From IMG/VR virus record IMGVR_UViG_3300035670_001485, positions 1-20,244 of that record: a stretch of DNA of 20,244 bases; one strand, written 5' to 3'. The notes below the pieces were generated by a model. The model had not been told where the DNA came from. It searched no databases and saw nothing but the letters and a program-made list of their open reading frames with translations. The DNA comes from a virus. This document shows, one piece after another, positions 3,486 through 18,957 of the stretch; the stretch's first letter is position 1, and every line of letters starts with the position of its first letter. The translations under genes and the position numbers were made by a program.

Positions 3486-3749
3486 ATGGCTTTCTCAGCT
3501 GCGCGTGTCGCTATCGGAACTGCTGCCACATACATCAACGGCACTGACATTCAGCCGATGCAGTTGTGGGTTCACAACGATGACGGCACATCCGACATCT
3601 GGTTGGGTGGTGCCGATGTGACGCAGAACAACGGACTGTTGTTGGAGAAACAGGAATCAATTTTCTTGACGATTCTTCCTGGGAATTATTTGTACGCTGC
3701 TGCTGGCAAAGACCCACATTTTGTTTCGTGGATGGCGCAGAGGTTCTAA
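3486..3749 (+). CDS. small beta-rich structural protein (possible capsid decoration or fiber domain)
   Basis: The 87-residue product has no membrane segment and alternates short hydrophobic strands with glycine turns. An N-terminal VAIGTAATYING (8-19) is followed by a strand LWVHND (27-32), then IWLGGADVTQNNGLLL (38-53) and a final strand ending LYAAAG. This layout, with strand-G-x-x-VT-x-x-NG-strand, recurs in small phage head proteins and reads as a compact beta-sandwich. It starts two bases after the portal stop and ends in a TAATG overlap with the protease gene, so it is made together with head proteins. A decoration or spike role on the capsid is inferred from fold impression and position only. 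The family is not firmly recognised. Confidence 0.6.
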   Translation: MAFSAARVAIGTAATYINGTDIQPMQLWVHNDDGTSDIWLGGADVTQNNGLLLEKQESIFLTILPGNYLYAAAGKDPHFVSWMAQRF

Positions 3750-5432: not shown

Positions 5433-6623
5433 ATGAAGGAATACATCGACCGTCAGGTTGAGATCCGTAATCGTGCGTGGAACGAAGCCAAGTCCATCTT
5501 GGATGCTGCCGCCGCCGAGAAGCGTGACCTCACCGCAGAAGAAACCCAGACCTACGAGCGCATCAGCAAGGAACTTGATGAGCGCGCCCAGGTCATCGCC
5601 AAGTTGCGTGAGGATGAGGCTCGTGAGCTTCGCCTCGATGCTGCGACCCGCGAAATCTCCGAGCAGGCTCGTCCCGTCGCCGGTATGCCGGTAGCAGACG
5701 ACATCGCCAATGTTCGCGCCCTCGTCACCGGTGAGCGTCGCTCATTCGTGTTTGAGAAGCGTGACGTGGTGAAGACCTCGCAGGGTGCGCCAGTCCCCAC
5801 CTCGTTCTACGATCAGGTGATCGAGCAGGCTCGTTTGGTCGGCCCGATGCTGGCAACCTCCACCGTGCTGAACACGGCTGGTGGCGAGAACCTCCAAATC
5901 CCGTCGCAGGCCGCTTGGTCGACCGCAGCGATCGTCGGTGAAGGAACCGCCATCGACGAGTCCGATCCGGTGTTCAACTCGTTCATCACCCTCGGTGCCT
6001 ACAAGTATTCGTTCCTCGTCCAAGTGTCGACGGAACTCCTTGAGGACTCGGGTGTTGATCTGCTCGGCTTCCTCGCCAGCCAGGTCGGAAACGAACTCGG
6101 CTTCCGCGTCAACAGCGGCCTCACGGTCGGCTCTGGCACGGGTGCGCCGAAGGGCGTTGTCGCTGCTGCTGGCTCGGGCATCACGGGTGGAACGGGTGTC
6201 GTCGGTGCGTTCACCGCAGACAACCTGATTGACCTCTACTACAGCCTCAACGGTGCAGCCCGAATGCTGCCTGGTGTCGGCTGGATGATGAACGGTGCCT
6301 CGATCGGTAAGGTGCGCAAGCTGAAGGACACCGCTGGACAGTATGTGTTCCAGCCTGCCCTCTCCGCAGACTCACCCGACACCCTGTTGGGCAAGCCGAT
6401 CTTCGAGAACCCCGCAATTGTCGACACGGCAACCAACGCCAAGTCGGTCATCGTGGGTCACCTCCCGTCGTACTTTGTTCGCACCGTCGGTGGCATCCGC
6501 CTCGACCGTTCGGACGACTACGCATTCAACGCAGGACTCGTCACCTTCCGTGCGACGTTCCGTGTTGACGGCAACCTGCCGCAGCCAAGCCACATCAAGT
6601 ACTTCATTGGTGGCACGGCCTAA
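5433..6623 (+). CDS. major capsid protein, HK97 fold
   Basis: The 396-residue product would form the icosahedral shell. Residues 1-75 are charged and helical (KEYIDRQVEIRNRAWNEAK near the start) and match the delta or scaffolding domain that the upstream protease removes. The body starts around residue 100 (RRSFVFEKRD), with the N-arm and E-loop region, then PVPTSFYDQVIEQARLVGPM (120-139) and the recognisable capsid core with ELLEDSGVDLLGFLASQVGN. Length and order are typical of the phage capsid family. AAGGAA at 5419-5424 lies 8 bases before the ATG. Third positions are C-rich, as expected for a highly expressed gene, and differ from the G/T-rich terminase. No separate scaffold gene is present, consistent with the built-in delta domain. 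Confidence 0.95.
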   Translation: MKEYIDRQVEIRNRAWNEAKSILDAAAAEKRDLTAEETQTYERISKELDERAQVIAKLREDEARELRLDAATREISEQARPVAGMPVADDIANVRALVTGERRSFVFEKRDVVKTSQGAPVPTSFYDQVIEQARLVGPMLATSTVLNTAGGENLQIPSQAAWSTAAIVGEGTAIDESDPVFNSFITLGAYKYSFLVQVSTELLEDSGVDLLGFLASQVGNELGFRVNSGLTVGSGTGAPKGVVAAAGSGITGGTGVVGAFTADNLIDLYYSLNGAARMLPGVGWMMNGASIGKVRKLKDTAGQYVFQPALSADSPDTLLGKPIFENPAIVDTATNAKSVIVGHLPSYFVRTVGGIRLDRSDDYAFNAGLVTFRATFRVDGNLPQPSHIKYFIGGTA

Positions 6624-6648
6624 GCAATTTCCAAAACTCCCATGATCT

Positions 6649-6683
6649 GGGGGCTGGCCGAACACGCAGGGCGGCCAGCCCCC
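6649..6683 (+). terminator. strong hairpin after the capsid gene
   Basis: GGGGGCTGGCCG (6649-6660) and CGGCCAGCCCCC (6672-6683) form a perfect 12-bp stem with an 11-base loop, 25 bases after the capsid stop. No T-run follows, so it is either a U-less terminator of the kind proposed in Actinobacteria or a 3' stabilising structure for capsid mRNA. Partial read-through would lower expression of the following glycosyltransferases relative to capsid. Confidence 0.7.
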
Positions 6684-6717
6684 ACCCATCATCCTGCGTC
6701 CTGCGAAGGAGGAAACG

Positions 6718-8016
6718 ATGGCAAATGGTCGTCGTAATAAGAAACACGCCAATCGATCTGCCCGACCTGGAGGCGGAATACCTGTTGAGGCTGGGCGTAG
6801 CGCACTTGCCCGAGGTGGCAGACTTACCGATCCCAACGCGCTACGAATCCTCTGGTACAGCAACGCCCCGTTCACGAACACCGGCTACGGGCAGCAAACC
6901 GCGCAAATCGTCCCGCGCCTCATCGAAGAAAACCACGAAGTAGCCATCCACGCCATGTACGGCCTTGAGGGGTCGACATCCATGTGGAACGGCGTGAAAC
7001 TCTACCCACGAGGCCTATCGGCCTACAGCGACGACATCATGGTTGCGCACTGGATGGATTGGGCAAACGGCAACCGCAACCTGCCCCCCATCCTCATGAC
7101 CCTGTTTGACGTATGGGTATTCAAGTCAGCCACCTTTGACCAGGTGCCACGGATCGCATCCTGGGTGCCAATCGACCACGCCCCCACCCCACCGGATGTC
7201 CTGGCGTGGCTGGCTCGCAAGAACGTGATGCCGATAGCGATGAGCCAGTTCGGGAGCCGAATGCTGGAGAAGGCTGGGTTGGAACATTTGTACGCCCCGC
7301 ACGGAATCGAGGACACGTTCAGGCCAACCGAGGTGTTCAGCAACGGACGCGCCCAGGCCACCGGTCGACAGCTCATGGGCATCGAAGACGACCGGTTCGT
7401 GGTCATGATGAACGCAGCCAACAAAGGCGTGAACCCGTCCAGGAAGGCATTTGCTGAGAACCTGCTGGCGTTCGGCATCTTCGCTCAAACCCACCCTGAC
7501 GCGGTGCTGTACCTGCACACCGAGGCCAACGGCTCGATGGGCGGCATCAGCTTGCTGCACCTGGCGGAGGCCTGCGGGATCAAACCAGAACAACTCAAAA
7601 TCGTCGATCAGTACGCCTACCGTGCCGGATTCCCCCAGGAAGCCCTGGCGGCCATGTATTCGGCCTCCGACGTGCTTCTGTCCTGCTCGATGGGCGAGGG
7701 CTTCGGTTTGGCTGTGATCGAGGCCCAGGCCTGCGGCACTAGGGTGATTGTCTCGGATTTCACGGCTCAGCCTGAGCTGGTGGGGTCGGGGTGGACGGTT
7801 GAGGTGCAGCCGTTTTGGGATGCGGCTCAACGCTCTTGGTTCTGCACCCCACAGGTTCCATCCATCGTGGATGCCCTGAAACGGGCCTACGAGGCTCCTA
7901 GAGGCGTGGATGAGATGGCTGTGGGGTTTGCTAGCCAGTATTACGCTGACGCGGTTTATACGGCGTTCTGGCAGCCGATCATGGGAAGGCTGGCGGCATG
8001 GTGCCGATCCCAGTAA
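6718..8016 (+). CDS. glycosyltransferase, GT4-like (GT-B fold)
   Basis: The 432-residue product would transfer a sugar from an activated donor. Residues 1-36 are a basic, glycine-rich leader. The N-terminal Rossmann half starts at ALRILWYSNAPF (41-52) with the glycine loop TNTGYGQQT (53-61). The C-terminal half has HTEANG (267-272), SASDVLLSCSMGEGFGLAVI (315-334) and the diagnostic E-x7-E pair E327/E335, followed by ACGTRVIVSD, as in GT4 enzymes. Acceptor and sugar cannot be read from sequence. It begins a four-gene coupled run and has the best ribosome site in the area, AAGGAGG at 6706-6712. Composition changes from C/A-rich to G/T-rich near 7740, just after the E-x7-E motif, hinting at a recombinant C-terminus. 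No signal peptide or membrane segment is visible, so it probably acts in the cytoplasm. Confidence 0.88.
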   Translation: MANGRRNKKHANRSARPGGGIPVEAGRSALARGGRLTDPNALRILWYSNAPFTNTGYGQQTAQIVPRLIEENHEVAIHAMYGLEGSTSMWNGVKLYPRGLSAYSDDIMVAHWMDWANGNRNLPPILMTLFDVWVFKSATFDQVPRIASWVPIDHAPTPPDVLAWLARKNVMPIAMSQFGSRMLEKAGLEHLYAPHGIEDTFRPTEVFSNGRAQATGRQLMGIEDDRFVVMMNAANKGVNPSRKAFAENLLAFGIFAQTHPDAVLYLHTEANGSMGGISLLHLAEACGIKPEQLKIVDQYAYRAGFPQEALAAMYSASDVLLSCSMGEGFGLAVIEAQACGTRVIVSDFTAQPELVGSGWTVEVQPFWDAAQRSWFCTPQVPSIVDALKRAYEAPRGVDEMAVGFASQYYADAVYTAFWQPIMGRLAAWCRSQ

Positions 8017-8657
8017 TCATCGTCCCTGTCCTCAACCGGTACGACCTGCTGCGCCGTGCCGTTTGGTCTATCGACTACCCCGTCGAAACCCTCATCCTGA
8101 TTGACAACGGCGACCGGCGAGAAACCTATCCCTGGCACACCAAACCCACCACCGTCTATGAGCAATACGTCTGGCACATCCCCACCAACCTTGGGGTCGG
8201 CCCGTCATGGAATGCTGGTATCAAATCGACACCACACCGAGACGGCTGGCTCCTACTGAACTCGGATGCCTGGTTCCTGTCCAACGAACTGGAGCGATTC
8301 TGGCAGGACTGCCAACCAGACAACATCGTGAAAACCCGTTCCCACTGGTCATGCGTCTGGATCGGCTCCCAAGTGGTCGCCAAGATTGGTCTGTTCTCCG
8401 AGTGCTACGTCCCCGCCTACTTCGAGGACAACGACTTCGAGCAACGGGCTGTGAACGCTGGGTTCAGCCTGGTGGTATCTGAAGCCCAGATAGGTCACGA
8501 CAACTCATCAACCATCGGCTCCGACCCGTTCCTGTTGATGAAGAACGCGCACAGCTTTGAACAGAATCGGCTGCTTCATGTGCGCCGGTGGTCTGCCGGT
8601 GTGCCGGAAGCCGGTGCTTGGGATCTGACCAGGCGGCGAGAATTGGGTTGGGAATGA
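7998..8657 (+). CDS. glycosyltransferase, GT2-like (GT-A fold)
   Basis: The 219-residue product has the layout of a compact GT-A enzyme: a first strand and turn VPVLNRYDLLRRAVWSI (9-25), a nucleotide-binding IDNGD (35-39) and NLGVGPSWNAGI (64-75). LLLNSDAWF (86-93) supplies the DxD-like metal site (NSD), and PAYFEDNDFEQRA (139-151) matches the acceptor and catalytic-base region of GT2 rhamnosyl- or galactosyl-type enzymes. It lacks any membrane helix and would be cytoplasmic. The ATG at 7998 overlaps the GT4 gene by 19 bases, and a GTG follows directly as an alternative. Third positions are strongly C/A-rich (20 G or T in the 60 bases from 8101), unlike the end of the preceding gene. The donor sugar is unknown. 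Confidence 0.82.
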   Translation: MVPIPVIIVPVLNRYDLLRRAVWSIDYPVETLILIDNGDRRETYPWHTKPTTVYEQYVWHIPTNLGVGPSWNAGIKSTPHRDGWLLLNSDAWFLSNELERFWQDCQPDNIVKTRSHWSCVWIGSQVVAKIGLFSECYVPAYFEDNDFEQRAVNAGFSLVVSEAQIGHDNSSTIGSDPFLLMKNAHSFEQNRLLHVRRWSAGVPEAGAWDLTRRRELGWE

Positions 8658-9388
8658 CCGTCTTTGACCTGGTTCTCTATAACGGGGAGGACGACGTTCT
8701 TGAATGCCGACTGTGGGAACTGGCCGATGTCGTTGATGTGATGGTCGTCCTCGAGGGGGATCGAACCTTCACCGGCAAACCGAAAGAGAAGAAACCCCGC
8801 GACAGGTTCAAGCAGTGGGACGGCCTGATCCATTGGGTCGACTATGTGACCCCGTTCGATCAGAACGCCTGGCTGGTCGAAACAGCCACCAGGAACCACC
8901 TGCTAGAGGTGGCTGACGGCTTGGGCTGCCAAGCAGACGATGTGGTGACGATCTGTGACGTGGATGAAATCTGGTCGCCCACAATGGTTTCAGCGTTCGC
9001 TGAGGAGCCTTGTGGGGTGATGATGCGGCATCTGGCGATGTCGGTGTTGTGGGAGCTGCCGCTCGAACTGACGTGTGTGGCAGGCCCACGGCATCGAGTA
9101 GGCCCGACAGCAGACCAGTTCCGGCGCAATCGAGGCAGCCATCGACTCCTGGTTGGCGGCTGGCACGTCTCTTGGATGGGCGGGGAGGAGTGGTGCGCCA
9201 ACAAAATCAGGTCATTCAGCCATCAGGAACTCAACCAGGGGAACGTGGACGCGGCCATGATCGACTGCCACCGGCACGGCAGGTTCGTTCACGGCGAAGT
9301 GTATAACGAGGTGCAGATCACCGAGGACTGGCCCCTGTGGATAAAGGCTGGGAAGGCACCCGAGTCCTGGTATCGGAGACGGCCATGA
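8654..9388 (+). CDS. glycosyltransferase, GT17-like (N-acetylglucosaminyltransferase family)
   Basis: The 244-residue product matches the GT17 pattern, a family named for eukaryotic beta-1,4-mannosyl-glycoprotein beta-1,4-GlcNAc transferase and common in phages and bacteria. Visible motifs are FDLVLYNGEDDVLECRLWEL (4-23), VVLEGDRTFTGKPK (31-44), TICDVDEIWSP (99-109) with the DVDE metal-type motif, GGWHVSWMGG (168-177) and KIRSFSHQE (184-192). The order and spacing agree with the family. The start at 8654 is chosen because it forms an ATGA overlap with the GT2 stop. An in-frame ATG at 8588 would add 22 cysteine- and arginine-rich residues lying inside the GT2 gene. Activity on a protein or glycan is inferred from family, and the exact linkage is unknown. 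Confidence 0.85.
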   Translation: MTVFDLVLYNGEDDVLECRLWELADVVDVMVVLEGDRTFTGKPKEKKPRDRFKQWDGLIHWVDYVTPFDQNAWLVETATRNHLLEVADGLGCQADDVVTICDVDEIWSPTMVSAFAEEPCGVMMRHLAMSVLWELPLELTCVAGPRHRVGPTADQFRRNRGSHRLLVGGWHVSWMGGEEWCANKIRSFSHQELNQGNVDAAMIDCHRHGRFVHGEVYNEVQITEDWPLWIKAGKAPESWYRRRP

Positions 9389-10284
9389 TCGTTGCCATCG
9401 CCCCAGCGCACGCCGTCACCGGTGGCCCCGAGGCCTTACATCAGCTAGTGCATACCGCCAACCGGCTGAAGCCTGGTTCGGCTGCGATCTGCTACCACCC
9501 GTTTGACCAGCGAGCCTGGGTGCCTGCCCCGTATCAAATCTATGACACCCCCGTGATAGGTAGGGAGGCCATCCCTGATGATGCGGTTGTAGTGTTGCCC
9601 GAGATTTGGCCTGAACTCGCTCAAGGGTTCACGCAACGCTGCGCCCTGTGGTGGCTGTCTGTGGATAACTATGGGACGCACGGCCAACGCAGCCTCAAAG
9701 GAATCGACCTGCACCTATTCCAATCCCACTATGCGGCTTTACATGGACGTGAGTTGGGGCTGCCAGGCATGATGCTCACCGACTACCTCAGCCCTGATTT
9801 CGTTGAGTTGGTGGCTTCCGTTGATGTGTCGCACAAGGATCGGTGTGTGGTGGTCAATCCGGCGAAGGGTCGTGAACTTATCCACAGGTTCCAGGCGATG
9901 AATCCAGACATTGAGGTTCGGGAGTTGCGTGGGTTGGATCGGGCTGGGGTGCGCGGCTTGTTGTTGTCGTCGATGGTGTATGTGGATTTTGGGCATCATC
10001 CTGGGCGGGATCGACCTCCGCGTGAGGCGGCGATGGCGAAGTGTGTGGTGTTCTCAACTCGGTTTGGTGCTGCTAGGAATCAGGTGGACATGAGGGTTCC
10101 TGAGCGGTTCAAGTTTGATTCGTTGGATGGTTTGGGTGAGCAGATTCGTGGCGTGTGGGATTCGCCTTCTGCGTTCGTGCGGAACTTGGATGACCAGTTG
10201 GAGTATCGGTTGTGGATTCGTGGCAACGAGCAAACATTCCGTGACGAGGTTTCGGTTCTGTTGAAATGGGCTGAAGTAGGATAG
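9385..10284 (+). CDS. GT-B-like glycosyltransferase-related protein
   Basis: The 299-residue protein begins with a short strand and glycine turn typical of a GT-B N-terminal half, MIVAIAPAHAVTGGPEALHQ (1-20). A WWLSVDNYG segment (89-97) follows, and a second half starts at CVVVNPAKGRELI (154-166). Its best landmark is YVDFGHHPGRDRPPREAAMA (199-218), where the E plays the part of the donor-site glutamate of GT-B enzymes. I recall similar DFG-HPG-DR-PREA proteins beside glycan genes in phages and bacteria, but the exact family is uncertain. The start at 9385 forms an ATGA overlap with the GT17 stop. An in-frame ATG at 9337 lies inside the previous gene and is rejected. The 3' half (from about 9740) is G/T-rich while the 5' half is mixed. 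It closes the four-gene run. Confidence 0.65.
   Translation: MIVAIAPAHAVTGGPEALHQLVHTANRLKPGSAAICYHPFDQRAWVPAPYQIYDTPVIGREAIPDDAVVVLPEIWPELAQGFTQRCALWWLSVDNYGTHGQRSLKGIDLHLFQSHYAALHGRELGLPGMMLTDYLSPDFVELVASVDVSHKDRCVVVNPAKGRELIHRFQAMNPDIEVRELRGLDRAGVRGLLLSSMVYVDFGHHPGRDRPPREAAMAKCVVFSTRFGAARNQVDMRVPERFKFDSLDGLGEQIRGVWDSPSAFVRNLDDQLEYRLWIRGNEQTFRDEVSVLLKWAEVG
10277..10282 (+). promoter_or_regulatory. TAGGAT box before the adaptor gene
   Basis: TAGGAT fits the TAnnnT -10 pattern and ends 9 bases before the ATG at 10292. The same TAGGATAGG string precedes the second fiber gene at 18157, also 9 bases from its ATG. Its AGG may instead be a weak Shine-Dalgarno sequence. Confidence 0.25.
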
Positions 10285-10291
10285 GCAAGCG

Positions 10292-10912
10292 ATGACGACG
10301 AATTATGCGACCCGCAACCAGATCAAAGCTGCCCTTCGTATCGGGACGGCTGACAGCATCGACGACGATCTGATTGACAACTGTGCTGGTGCTGCGTCGC
10401 GTCTCATTGACGGCTACTGCAACCGAAAGTTCTGGACATCAGGCACCGCCCAGACACGCACCTACACGGCAGGCAACGAGTTCGTTTGCCAGATAGATGA
10501 CATCGCAGGCACCGCCATCACCCTCAAAACTTCAACGCTTGGTGACGGCAACTTTGATGTGACTTGGACAACGAGCGACTATCAGCTTGAGCCGTTGAAC
10601 GGGAACTTGGATGGGTTGGATTGGGCGTATGACCGTATTCGTGCCATCGGTGATTATCTGTTCCCAACATTGAATGCGAACTATGGGGAGCAGGCTTTAG
10701 TGCAGTTGACGGCTGTGTTCGGTTGGCCGTCGGTTCCGTCACCGGTGACGCAGGCGACGATCATTCAAGCGTCACGCATCTTCAAGCGTTATGACTCTCC
10801 GTTGGGTGTGGCTGGGTTCGGTGATCTTGGGGCGATTCGTGTGTCTCGTTTCCTTGATCCCGATGTTGCTCAACTTGTGGAGCCGTATCGCAGGATGCGG
10901 ATGTTTGCGTGA
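10292..10912 (+). CDS. head-tail adaptor (connector) protein
   Basis: The 206-residue product is most likely the adaptor that docks under the portal. The N-terminus, YATRNQIKAALRI (5-17) followed by IDDDLIDNCAGAASRLIDGY (23-42), is the standard helical opening of gp6/gp15-type connectors, where a DD pair precedes a long helix ending in an aromatic residue. A beta-rich insert with DYQLEP follows. The C-terminal segment has a helix holding QATIIQASRIFKRYDSPLGV and the ending ARxxRFLDPDVAQLVEPYRR-like pattern seen in connectors. It directly follows the glycosyltransferase run and restarts the conserved structural order. Its stop overlaps the next GTG start (GTGA, 10909-10912), so the two are coupled. 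Confidence 0.8.
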   Translation: MTTNYATRNQIKAALRIGTADSIDDDLIDNCAGAASRLIDGYCNRKFWTSGTAQTRTYTAGNEFVCQIDDIAGTAITLKTSTLGDGNFDVTWTTSDYQLEPLNGNLDGLDWAYDRIRAIGDYLFPTLNANYGEQALVQLTAVFGWPSVPSPVTQATIIQASRIFKRYDSPLGVAGFGDLGAIRVSRFLDPDVAQLVEPYRRMRMFA

Positions 10913-17241: not shown

Positions 17242-17970
17242 ATGGCTGGTCTAGGTGGCAAGAATTGGTCGTTCCAGGAGGAAGTCACATCGTCGGATGT
17301 GAACGGCTTTCTCGCTGATCAGGTGGTGATGCGGTTCGCTGATGAGGCGACGAGGACTGCTGGGTTCGGTGGATCGGGTGAGCCGACTTTGGCTGAAGGG
17401 ATGGTGTCGTATCTGGATGACAGCAATACGCTGGCTGTGTATAACGGGTCGGCGTGGGTTGGGGTTGCGGATGCTGATGCGCCTGCTGGTTTGCAGTTGG
17501 TCAAGACTCAGGTGATTGGGTCTGCGGTTTCTAGTGTGACAGTTACAGGTGCGTTTAGTGCAGACTATGACAACTATTTGATTCAAGTTGCTGGTGGTTC
17601 TTCATCGGCTGGATGTGTATTGAAATGCACGTTGGGAGCATCATCAACTGCTTATTATCAAGTTCGCTTATCACTCCTCTATTCTGGTGCAAGCACTTCA
17701 TTCGGGAGTGACAACAATGCCGCCGCTTGGAGCGCAGTCGGCAGTGGACAAAGCACTGGACTTTTCGCCTCGTTCACTCTCAATTCCCCATTTCTTGCCA
17801 AAGTAACGCACGGCCATGCTAGTTATCAGTCAACCGATAATCTTGCTGGCGCACTTGTGTTCCTTGAGCATCGAGTCTCAACCAGTTATACCGATTTCAC
17901 TTTGACACCAAGTACGGGAACCATCACGGGTGGCACTATTCGTGTCTATGGGTATAGGAACGCTGTATGA
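17242..17970 (+). CDS. tail fiber-like protein, copy 1
   Basis: The 242-residue product has an N-terminal module of about 75 residues common in phage tail proteins: EVTSSDVNGFLADQVVMRF (14-32), a GEPTLAEGMVSYLDDSNTL segment and VYNGSAWVGV. This module probably attaches to the tail. The rest is beta-rich, with FSADYDNYLIQV and the ending TGTITGGTIRVYGYR, a typical closing motif of phage adhesin domains, and may bind the host surface. It pairs with a downstream paralog (18172-18957) that has the same modules and the same start and end motifs. Base composition becomes less GC-rich and less G/T-biased from about 17540, where the C-terminal domain begins. Receptor binding is inferred. Confidence 0.7.
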   Translation: MAGLGGKNWSFQEEVTSSDVNGFLADQVVMRFADEATRTAGFGGSGEPTLAEGMVSYLDDSNTLAVYNGSAWVGVADADAPAGLQLVKTQVIGSAVSSVTVTGAFSADYDNYLIQVAGGSSSAGCVLKCTLGASSTAYYQVRLSLLYSGASTSFGSDNNAAAWSAVGSGQSTGLFASFTLNSPFLAKVTHGHASYQSTDNLAGALVFLEHRVSTSYTDFTLTPSTGTITGGTIRVYGYRNAV

Positions 17971-18171: not shown

Positions 18172-18957
18172 ATGGCGATCACTGGCACTAAGGCGTTCAC
18201 TAGCGGTGAGGTATTGACTGCGAATGATGTGAACCAGTATTTGATGCGTGGCGTGAAAGTGTTTTCTTCGACTGCTGTAAGGGATGCTGCTTATGGTGGT
18301 GCAGGGGAACCGACATTGGAGGAGGGTGAGACTTGCTACATCACGGGGGATGACGAACTGCAAACTTATGATGGTTCGTCTTGGGTGAAGATCGGGCCGT
18401 TCGTCAGTGATAGTGGAATCAGGGCAATAGTTCCGACATCCGTCACAGTGACGGGCGCAGGCTCGTCAAGTTCAGTTGGCGCGAATGGGAAAATCACATT
18501 TGGAACAGCCGAAAGCGTGTCAATCAACGGTGTGTTTAGTTCAACATTTGACAATTACAGGTTTATTTTTGACGCGACGCCATCAACGAGCAACAACATT
18601 GACATCCGATTGCGTGTCGGTGGCGTAGACAACTCCACGTCAAACTCGTACATTTTCCAGTTGGTCGATTTATCAAGCACAACGTCGTCACCAAGCCGCG
18701 TGACGACTACCGCTTTTAGAGGCGGCACACTTACATCAAATAGCACATACACAAGCGGCTTTATTGTGGATGTGATCAACCCCTTTGCGGCGGCTCGCAC
18801 CAACTATTACGCAACGAATCAAGACGCAGAAAGCGGCGCACGAATGCGAATCTTTGTCGGCACCCATAACCAAGCCACTTCCTATGACGGATTTAGTTTG
18901 ATTTGCTCAACAGGCAACATCACCGGCACAGTCACGGTCTACGGATACTTTGGATAA
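18172..18957 (+). CDS. tail fiber-like protein, copy 2
   Basis: The 261-residue product is a paralog of the fiber at 17242. The N-terminal module holds FTSGEVLTANDVNQYLMRG (9-27), GGAGEPTLEEGETCYI and ELQTYDGSSWVKI, matching copy 1 motif for motif. The C-terminal domain contains FSSTFDNYRFIFDA, serine- and asparagine-rich strands, and a STGNITGTVTVYGYFG ending. Copies differ greatly in their central parts, as expected of receptor-binding domains. From about 18410 the base composition is AT-richer than neighbours (23 G or C in the 60 bases from 18541), which suggests a domain of separate origin. Start at 18172 is supported by AGGTGG upstream. An assignment as receptor-binding protein is inferred. 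Confidence 0.7.
   Translation: MAITGTKAFTSGEVLTANDVNQYLMRGVKVFSSTAVRDAAYGGAGEPTLEEGETCYITGDDELQTYDGSSWVKIGPFVSDSGIRAIVPTSVTVTGAGSSSSVGANGKITFGTAESVSINGVFSSTFDNYRFIFDATPSTSNNIDIRLRVGGVDNSTSNSYIFQLVDLSSTTSSPSRVTTTAFRGGTLTSNSTYTSGFIVDVINPFAAARTNYYATNQDAESGARMRIFVGTHNQATSYDGFSLICSTGNITGTVTVYGYFG

Follow-up and report, generated by a model that had tools for sequence, protein, structure and literature searches.

Four coupled glycosyltransferase genes separate the capsid and connector genes

We analyzed the whole of the IMG/VR viral contig IMGVR_UViG_3300035670_001485 (20,244 bases; hereafter, the window), which contains four consecutive glycosyltransferase (GT) genes within a siphovirus structural region of terminase, portal, protease, HK97 capsid, GT, connector, and tail genes. 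No close match to the window DNA was found among phage records. The GT genes form a cassette whose left border is an HK97-type major capsid protein gene (5433–6623; PF05065, E 1.5e-56; phrog_10) and whose right border is a head-tail connector gene of the gp6/Ad1 type (10292–10912; phrog_442, E 7e-14). These and all features described below lie on the plus strand. We number the genes GT1 to GT4 by their order; enzyme families are marked as such.

GT1 (6718–8016; PF00534, E 3e-11; phrog_2170) encodes a retaining glycosyltransferase of the GT4 type, with residues ~1–40 dual-coded. Its match to Glycos_transf_1 (43.6 bits against a cut-off of 26.4) and its EX7E motif, in which E286 and E294 are invariant in an alignment of relatives, place it in that family. 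The best solved relative in a profile search was the chlorovirus enzyme B736L (3oy2, E 2e-13). GT2 (7998–8657; PF00535, E 6e-5; phrog_29879, E 2e-34) encodes a GT2-family enzyme in which the catalytic Asp of NSDA and PAYFED is invariant across 68 distinct sequences. GT3 (8654–9388; PF04724, E 2e-19, 70.3 bits against a cut-off of 26) belongs to the GT17 family, and its DxDEIW motif is invariant in 15 sequences. The product of GT4 (9385–10284) matched nothing in Pfam or PHROGs. Its AlphaFold model, built from a nine-sequence alignment, has a predicted local distance difference test score (pLDDT) of 89.8, and Foldseek matched it to GT-B glycosyltransferases, the best being Actinobacillus AmGGT (8xsh, E 4e-10, template modeling score 0.71). 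Of the EX7E motif, just the second Glu appears to be conserved in the sequence of this protein.

The genes are tightly coupled. A Shine-Dalgarno sequence, AAGGAGG (6706–6712), kept in relatives, precedes GT1 and is shared with an overlapping open reading frame (ORF), f1, described below. GT1 and GT2 overlap by 19 bases, and ATGA overlaps join GT2 to GT3 (8654–8657) and GT3 to GT4 (9385–9388). An earlier sequence-only reading had proposed such a run of four coupled genes from four families. Its coordinates, overlaps, and ribosome site are all borne out in the sequence, as are the families, the first three by Pfam and PHROGs and the fourth by its predicted fold. That reading had also counted an 87-residue protein (3486–3749) as a neighbor of the capsid gene, but this ORF lies between the portal and protease genes.

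Ratios of nonsynonymous to synonymous substitution rates against a relative were 0.07–0.11 for GT1, GT2, and GT4, so the run is not a chance arrangement; saturation of synonymous sites precluded an estimate for GT3. Simple hydropathy predicted all four GT proteins to be free of membrane segments. Protein identity to the closest relative is 94% for the capsid protein and 97% for the connector, and drops along the cassette from GT1 (89–90%) through GT2 (80%) and GT3 (78%) to GT4 (71–74%).

The cassette adjoins the capsid gene throughout the window's lineage

Searching viral contigs with GT1 recovered at least 258 relatives, whereas GT2, GT3, and GT4 each recovered only three to five close ones. 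In the GT1-anchored set, the order capsid–GT1–GT2–slot–connector is invariant in ~80 distinct contigs wherever their length suffices. Given that searches anchored on a GT gene carry an ascertainment bias, we controlled for it with two capsid-anchored searches. With the window capsid, GT1 directly follows the capsid gene in 76/76 testable relatives, that is, the closest capsid relatives whose contigs are long enough (71–94% capsid identity). The cassette is thus universal among tested relatives of the window's own lineage, which answers the question, raised by the sequence-only reading, of whether the run always adjoins the capsid gene in related phages.

The second search used the capsid of Pontimonas phage phiPsal1, which represents a sister lineage. 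Here GT1 is the next gene in 55 contigs and is absent from that place in 11. Eight of these 11 are empty sites that pass from the capsid gene and a hairpin to the connector gene without any cassette. Two cassette-free genomes retain homologues of the phiPsal1 capsid, portal, tape-measure, neck, and tail genes; the cassette is therefore dispensable for assembly in the sister lineage. One contig with ~95% capsid identity to phiPsal1 carries a GT1 gene with an internal TAA stop (G010:C1:7432-8622).

phiPsal1 itself has a capsid-GT4-MTase-GT2-neck module (MG835450) in the same position and between the same flanking genes, with homologous GT1 (42%) and GT2 (37–38%) proteins. It differs in lacking GT17, GT-B, and f1 and in having its methyltransferase on the opposite strand. 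We found no literature report of a functional test of this module.

A constant gene pair is followed by a variable slot

Downstream of the constant GT1 and GT2 genes, the interval up to the connector gene varies. Across 71 contigs having both borders, this slot holds at least nine enzyme combinations, nearly all of them GTs, methyltransferases, or related enzymes. The most frequent occupant is a DUF115/MptE-like protein (42/71, with a homing nuclease of the HNH or GIY-YIG type added in a further six). Other sets are GT17 plus a GT2-like enzyme (6/71), GT-B plus a methyltransferase (4/71), and GT17 plus an ORF read on closer inspection as an S-adenosylmethionine (SAM) methyltransferase (3/71); the window's GT17 and GT-B pair is among several rarer ones. 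The kinds of enzyme are MptE/DUF115-like, GT17, GT2-like, two types of GT-B, and two types of methyltransferase. For the MptE-like enzyme, the AlphaFold model (pLDDT 55) was too poor for a fold search, and a profile search gave no solved relative.

Slot contents differ even between near-identical phages. Contigs L027 and L028 share 99.9% nucleotide identity in GT1 and 98.7% in the connector gene, yet one slot holds a GT-B-like gene and the other an unrelated GT-B plus a methyltransferase; L029 and L031 likewise differ by GT-B versus GT17. Homing-type endonucleases occur in the slot (HNH in L039, L067, L085, L086, and L088; GIY-YIG at L043:10573-11292) and could possibly drive this exchange. 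In more distant relatives, a contig from an actinobacterial metagenome-assembled genome (MAG) encodes a 649-residue fusion of GT1 with a GT2-type domain between its capsid and connector genes (L181:6913-8862), and the cassettes of L182 and Microcystis phage Mae-JY09 include an NAD-dependent sugar epimerase.

These features bear on whether the genes work together. The constant GT1 and GT2 pair, a slot that accepts almost only glycan-type enzymes, the GT4-GT2 fusion, and the epimerases of distant cassettes support stepwise building of a glycan, which we regard as very probable. The genes might instead be loosely related accessory genes that share an insertion hot spot and no common pathway, as the eight empty sites of the sister clade and the homing endonucleases within the slot could suggest. 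This seems improbable, given that GT1 and GT2 stay together throughout the window's clade, that the testable genes are under purifying selection, that the slot admits almost no other than glycan-type enzymes, and that a GT4-GT2 fusion occurs.

An overlapping gene accounts for the GT1 leader

The 5′ end of GT1 overlaps f1 (6725–6943), a 72-codon ORF in the +1 frame whose protein starts MVVVIRNTPIDLPDLEAEYLLRLGVAHLPEVADLP... (also written MLVIIKNTPVELPDLEAEILLRRGIAHLPE...). In 82/82 loci the f1 ATG lies at an identical distance from the GT1 domain, and the frame ends at nearly the same place, after ~72 codons. Over the first 38 codons (6725 onward), the ratio of nonsynonymous to synonymous differences (pN/pS) is 0.31 for the +1 frame against 1.60 for the GT1 frame; these figures come from 1,951 pairs among 65 distinct sequences and are descriptive, since neither pairs nor sequences are independent. 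The selection pattern reverses between the frames where the GT1 domain begins.

The sequence-only reading had noted a basic 36-residue leader on the GT1 protein and proposed that it may be a binding tail. The leader reads as described. However, purifying selection maintains the f1 frame rather than the GT1 frame, so the leader is better explained as an alternate-frame by-product of f1. A capsid-binding role for it is not supported, as selection acts on the other frame.

The GT1 frame is nevertheless open over the leader in 65/65 distinct sequences, where a codon-resampling model expects ~15% each. In all 80 loci scored, 4–13 bases separate the +1 ATG from a preceding in-frame RTG or TTG. The best reading of this region is of two overlapping genes begun from one ribosome site. 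We prefer two starts to a −1 frameshift that would fuse f1 to GT1 because no slippery heptamer was seen at the junction in the sequences inspected and because both the GT1-frame start codon and the open leader are conserved. We found no convincing relatives of f1 in known phages; in a relative of the window, f1 resembles Pfam DUF7210 (PF23843) below threshold (13.1 bits against a cut-off of 27, E 0.07).

A conserved RNA element precedes GT1

The gap separating the capsid gene from GT1 contains a conserved RNA element (6648–6705). Its 13-bp stem (6648–6660/6672–6684) encloses an invariant 11-base loop, AACACGCAGGG (6661–6671), and loop-complementary CCTGCG occurs at 6693–6698 and again at 6700–6705. 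The stem varies among relatives (11 distinct stem sequences). Across 19 distinct sequences, 100% of stem cells are paired, with compensatory changes in 10 of the 13 pairs, and sliding the stem partner removes this covariation signal. The second helix, formed by the loop with downstream CCCTGCG, hardly varies within the main group and is probably a pseudoknot, for which complementarity is the main support. Four divergent relatives have the loop GTGCAG, accompanied downstream by CTGCAC in three and CCCGCAC in one, which is consistent with a compensatory change from C-G to U-A.

The element is present in 73/77 capsid-anchored relatives having GT1, and among loci examined from a pattern search of viral contigs, all 79 that extend past it have it in this position, after the capsid gene and before GT1. 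Most copies end in a T-rich tail resembling an intrinsic terminator; those of the window's own clade have none. A comparison with Rfam gave nothing above the gathering score, only sub-threshold chance matches, and a simple terminator scan omitted the hairpin because the scan allows loops of up to 8 bases and this one has 11. Sister-clade hairpins directly after the capsid gene (L298, L299, L300, L301, L309, and others) share a recurrent loop of a different sequence, TTGTAGGT, and a T-run comes next. The use of conserved terminator loops may be more general among these phages.

A glycan on the virion is the favored interpretation

The data above establish what the genes are, their coupling, position, and modularity, the selection on them, and the covariation of the RNA. 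From these observations we infer a reaction order, sugar donors, an acceptor, a mode of regulation, and a biological role. The four genes would constitute a cassette for glycan assembly within the late structural operon of a siphophage that is lytic and whose host is probably actinobacterial: a WhiB gene in one relative, the host of phiPsal1, and the MAG matches point that way. GT1 most likely attaches the first sugar to the acceptor and GT2 extends it, after which the GT17 and GT-B enzymes of the swappable slot would add the outer sugars. The donors would be host nucleotide sugars, and the acceptor most likely a cytosolic virion protein, either capsid or tail. The resulting virion would be decorated, with outer sugars that vary between phages. 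Expression of the enzymes is probably kept below that of the capsid protein by the hairpin downstream of the capsid gene, a terminator-like structure in most relatives.

Decoration of the virion is favored because of parallels in other viruses. The nearest analogue is the capsid glycan of chloroviruses, which encode the enzymes that glycosylate their capsid protein and thereby produce a conserved core and variable, strain-specific outer sugars (PMC7826918), and B736L, the enzyme nearest GT1 among solved structures, comes from this group (PMC4691112). The capsid N-glycan enzymes of PBCV-1 and NY2A (A111/114R, A064R, A075L, and B736L) resemble the cassette in that several viral GTs build one glycan, the set includes a methyltransferase, and a constant core carries strain-specific outer sugars. 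They differ in belonging to a eukaryotic giant virus, in that several are multidomain, and in that the structure of the capsid glycan is solved, whereas here the enzymes occupy a 3.6-kb phage operon and the acceptor is putative.

Mycobacteriophages offer another parallel. Glycans are reported on their capsids and tail tubes, those on capsids at C-termini (PMC12619734 and PMC12691614, citing Freeman et al. 2023). As described there, these are tailed phages of actinobacteria whose own GTs decorate capsid and tail, and the window likewise encodes its own glycosyltransferases. In the F1 phage Tweety, however, gp104, a putative GT, is encoded at the genome's far end (PMC2884959), remote from the capsid gene that the window's GT genes adjoin. 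A bacterial precedent for stepwise glycosylation of proteins in the cytosol is Actinobacillus NGT with Agt/AmGGT, which includes the closest fold to the GT4 product, albeit at 16% sequence identity. The substrates of AmGGT itself are oligosaccharides; glycopeptides are used only by the homologous Agt enzymes, which extend peptide-linked glucose (PMC12159676).

We also count for virion decoration the invariant placement, the modular slot and its swaps in near-identical phages, the GT4-GT2 fusion, the epimerases, the lack of predicted membrane segments, and the absence of matches to a thymidylate-synthase-type base-modification gene or a tyrosine integrase in five larger relatives. The stepwise pathway of the sequence-only reading is well supported. 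Its second part, that the glycan is carried by the virion, is plausible, and on balance we lean toward a virion protein as the acceptor.

Several observations weigh against this assignment. No acceptor was identified. The capsid C-terminus (...PQPSHIKYFIGGTA) has no Ser/Thr-rich tail, in contrast to the C-terminal glycans reported for mycobacteriophages, and shows no difference between cassette-bearing and cassette-free relatives; Ser/Thr-richness is a criterion of our own choosing. Comparison with two cassette-free genomes, whose structural genes are intact, revealed no clear virion gene that is present only alongside the cassette. The site is also an insertion hot spot, with empty sites and homing endonucleases, so capsid adjacency may reflect a tolerated insertion point rather than a function. 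In addition, soluble GTs can act on wall-glycan precursors in the host cytosol, and a distant GT4 homologue resides in a polysaccharide locus of a phage contig (L004:5000-12800), beside genes that read as GT2-, methyltransferase-, flippase-, UDP-galactopyranose-mutase-, and polymerase-like.

Within the window, two related tail proteins encoded downstream of the tape-measure gene (17242–17970 and 18172–18957) have C-terminal halves that are richer in Ser/Thr than any other virion segment. As possible acceptors they are only a lead. Among relatives of the window, L015 has, between its portal and protease genes, an ORF for a repeat protein rich in Ala and Thr (L015:4059-4745), which could also be a glycan acceptor.

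The main alternative, to which the polysaccharide locus in L004 lends support, is that the enzymes alter a host surface glycan during infection, for example through a cytosolic wall-polysaccharide precursor, thereby preventing competing phages from adsorbing. Variable outer sugars would suit receptor diversity, Pontimonas has an unusual, polyrhamnose-type wall with many glycosyltransferases (PMC6106888), and superinfection exclusion has been suggested for GTs of Nanopelagicales phages (PMC10202952). The cassette, however, lacks genes for membrane proteins, flippases, or anchor synthesis; judged by gene contents and hydropathy, no membrane flippase and membrane GT of the gtrABC seroconversion type lie beside it. 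Its place in a late structural operon also argues against this role, as altering the surface at that stage would gain a lytic phage little. A search that took in tyrosine integrases (PF00589) but not serine integrases gave no match in either the window or five larger relatives, whose records may not be complete. We consider modification of the host surface unlikely, but a serious competitor to virion decoration.

The same publication on freshwater actinophages offers DNA protection as the other role for their GTs, which are not necessarily homologues of the cassette enzymes (PMC10202952). Glycosylation of phage DNA as a shield against nucleases thus has a proposal from the same habitat behind it. 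No thymidylate-synthase/hydroxymethylase family gene (PF00303) was matched in the window or the five larger relatives, whose records may be incomplete, and the closest relative instead has an apparent C5 cytosine methyltransferase. Phage DNA glycosyltransferases are well known, but the GT17 and GT2 types differ from the classical T4-type DNA glucosyltransferases. Taken together, these points make a DNA target highly improbable.

Implications

Two of the features described here, f1 and the RNA element, are ones that ordinary annotation misses; both are separate additions to the cassette itself. We tentatively suggest that the locus belongs to a widespread modular system for virion glycans in freshwater actinophages, in which constant core GTs next to the capsid gene are combined with exchangeable outer-sugar enzymes, a previously undescribed RNA hairpin-pseudoknot, and a co-started f1. 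If so, the surface glycan would be switchable by recombination at a single locus. Should the glycan indeed reside on the particle, abundant uncultured freshwater phages would alter their surface chemistry through one recombination slot, providing a bacterial-virus counterpart to the capsid glycans of chloroviruses and a testable reason for the presence of many unexplained phage glycosyltransferases.

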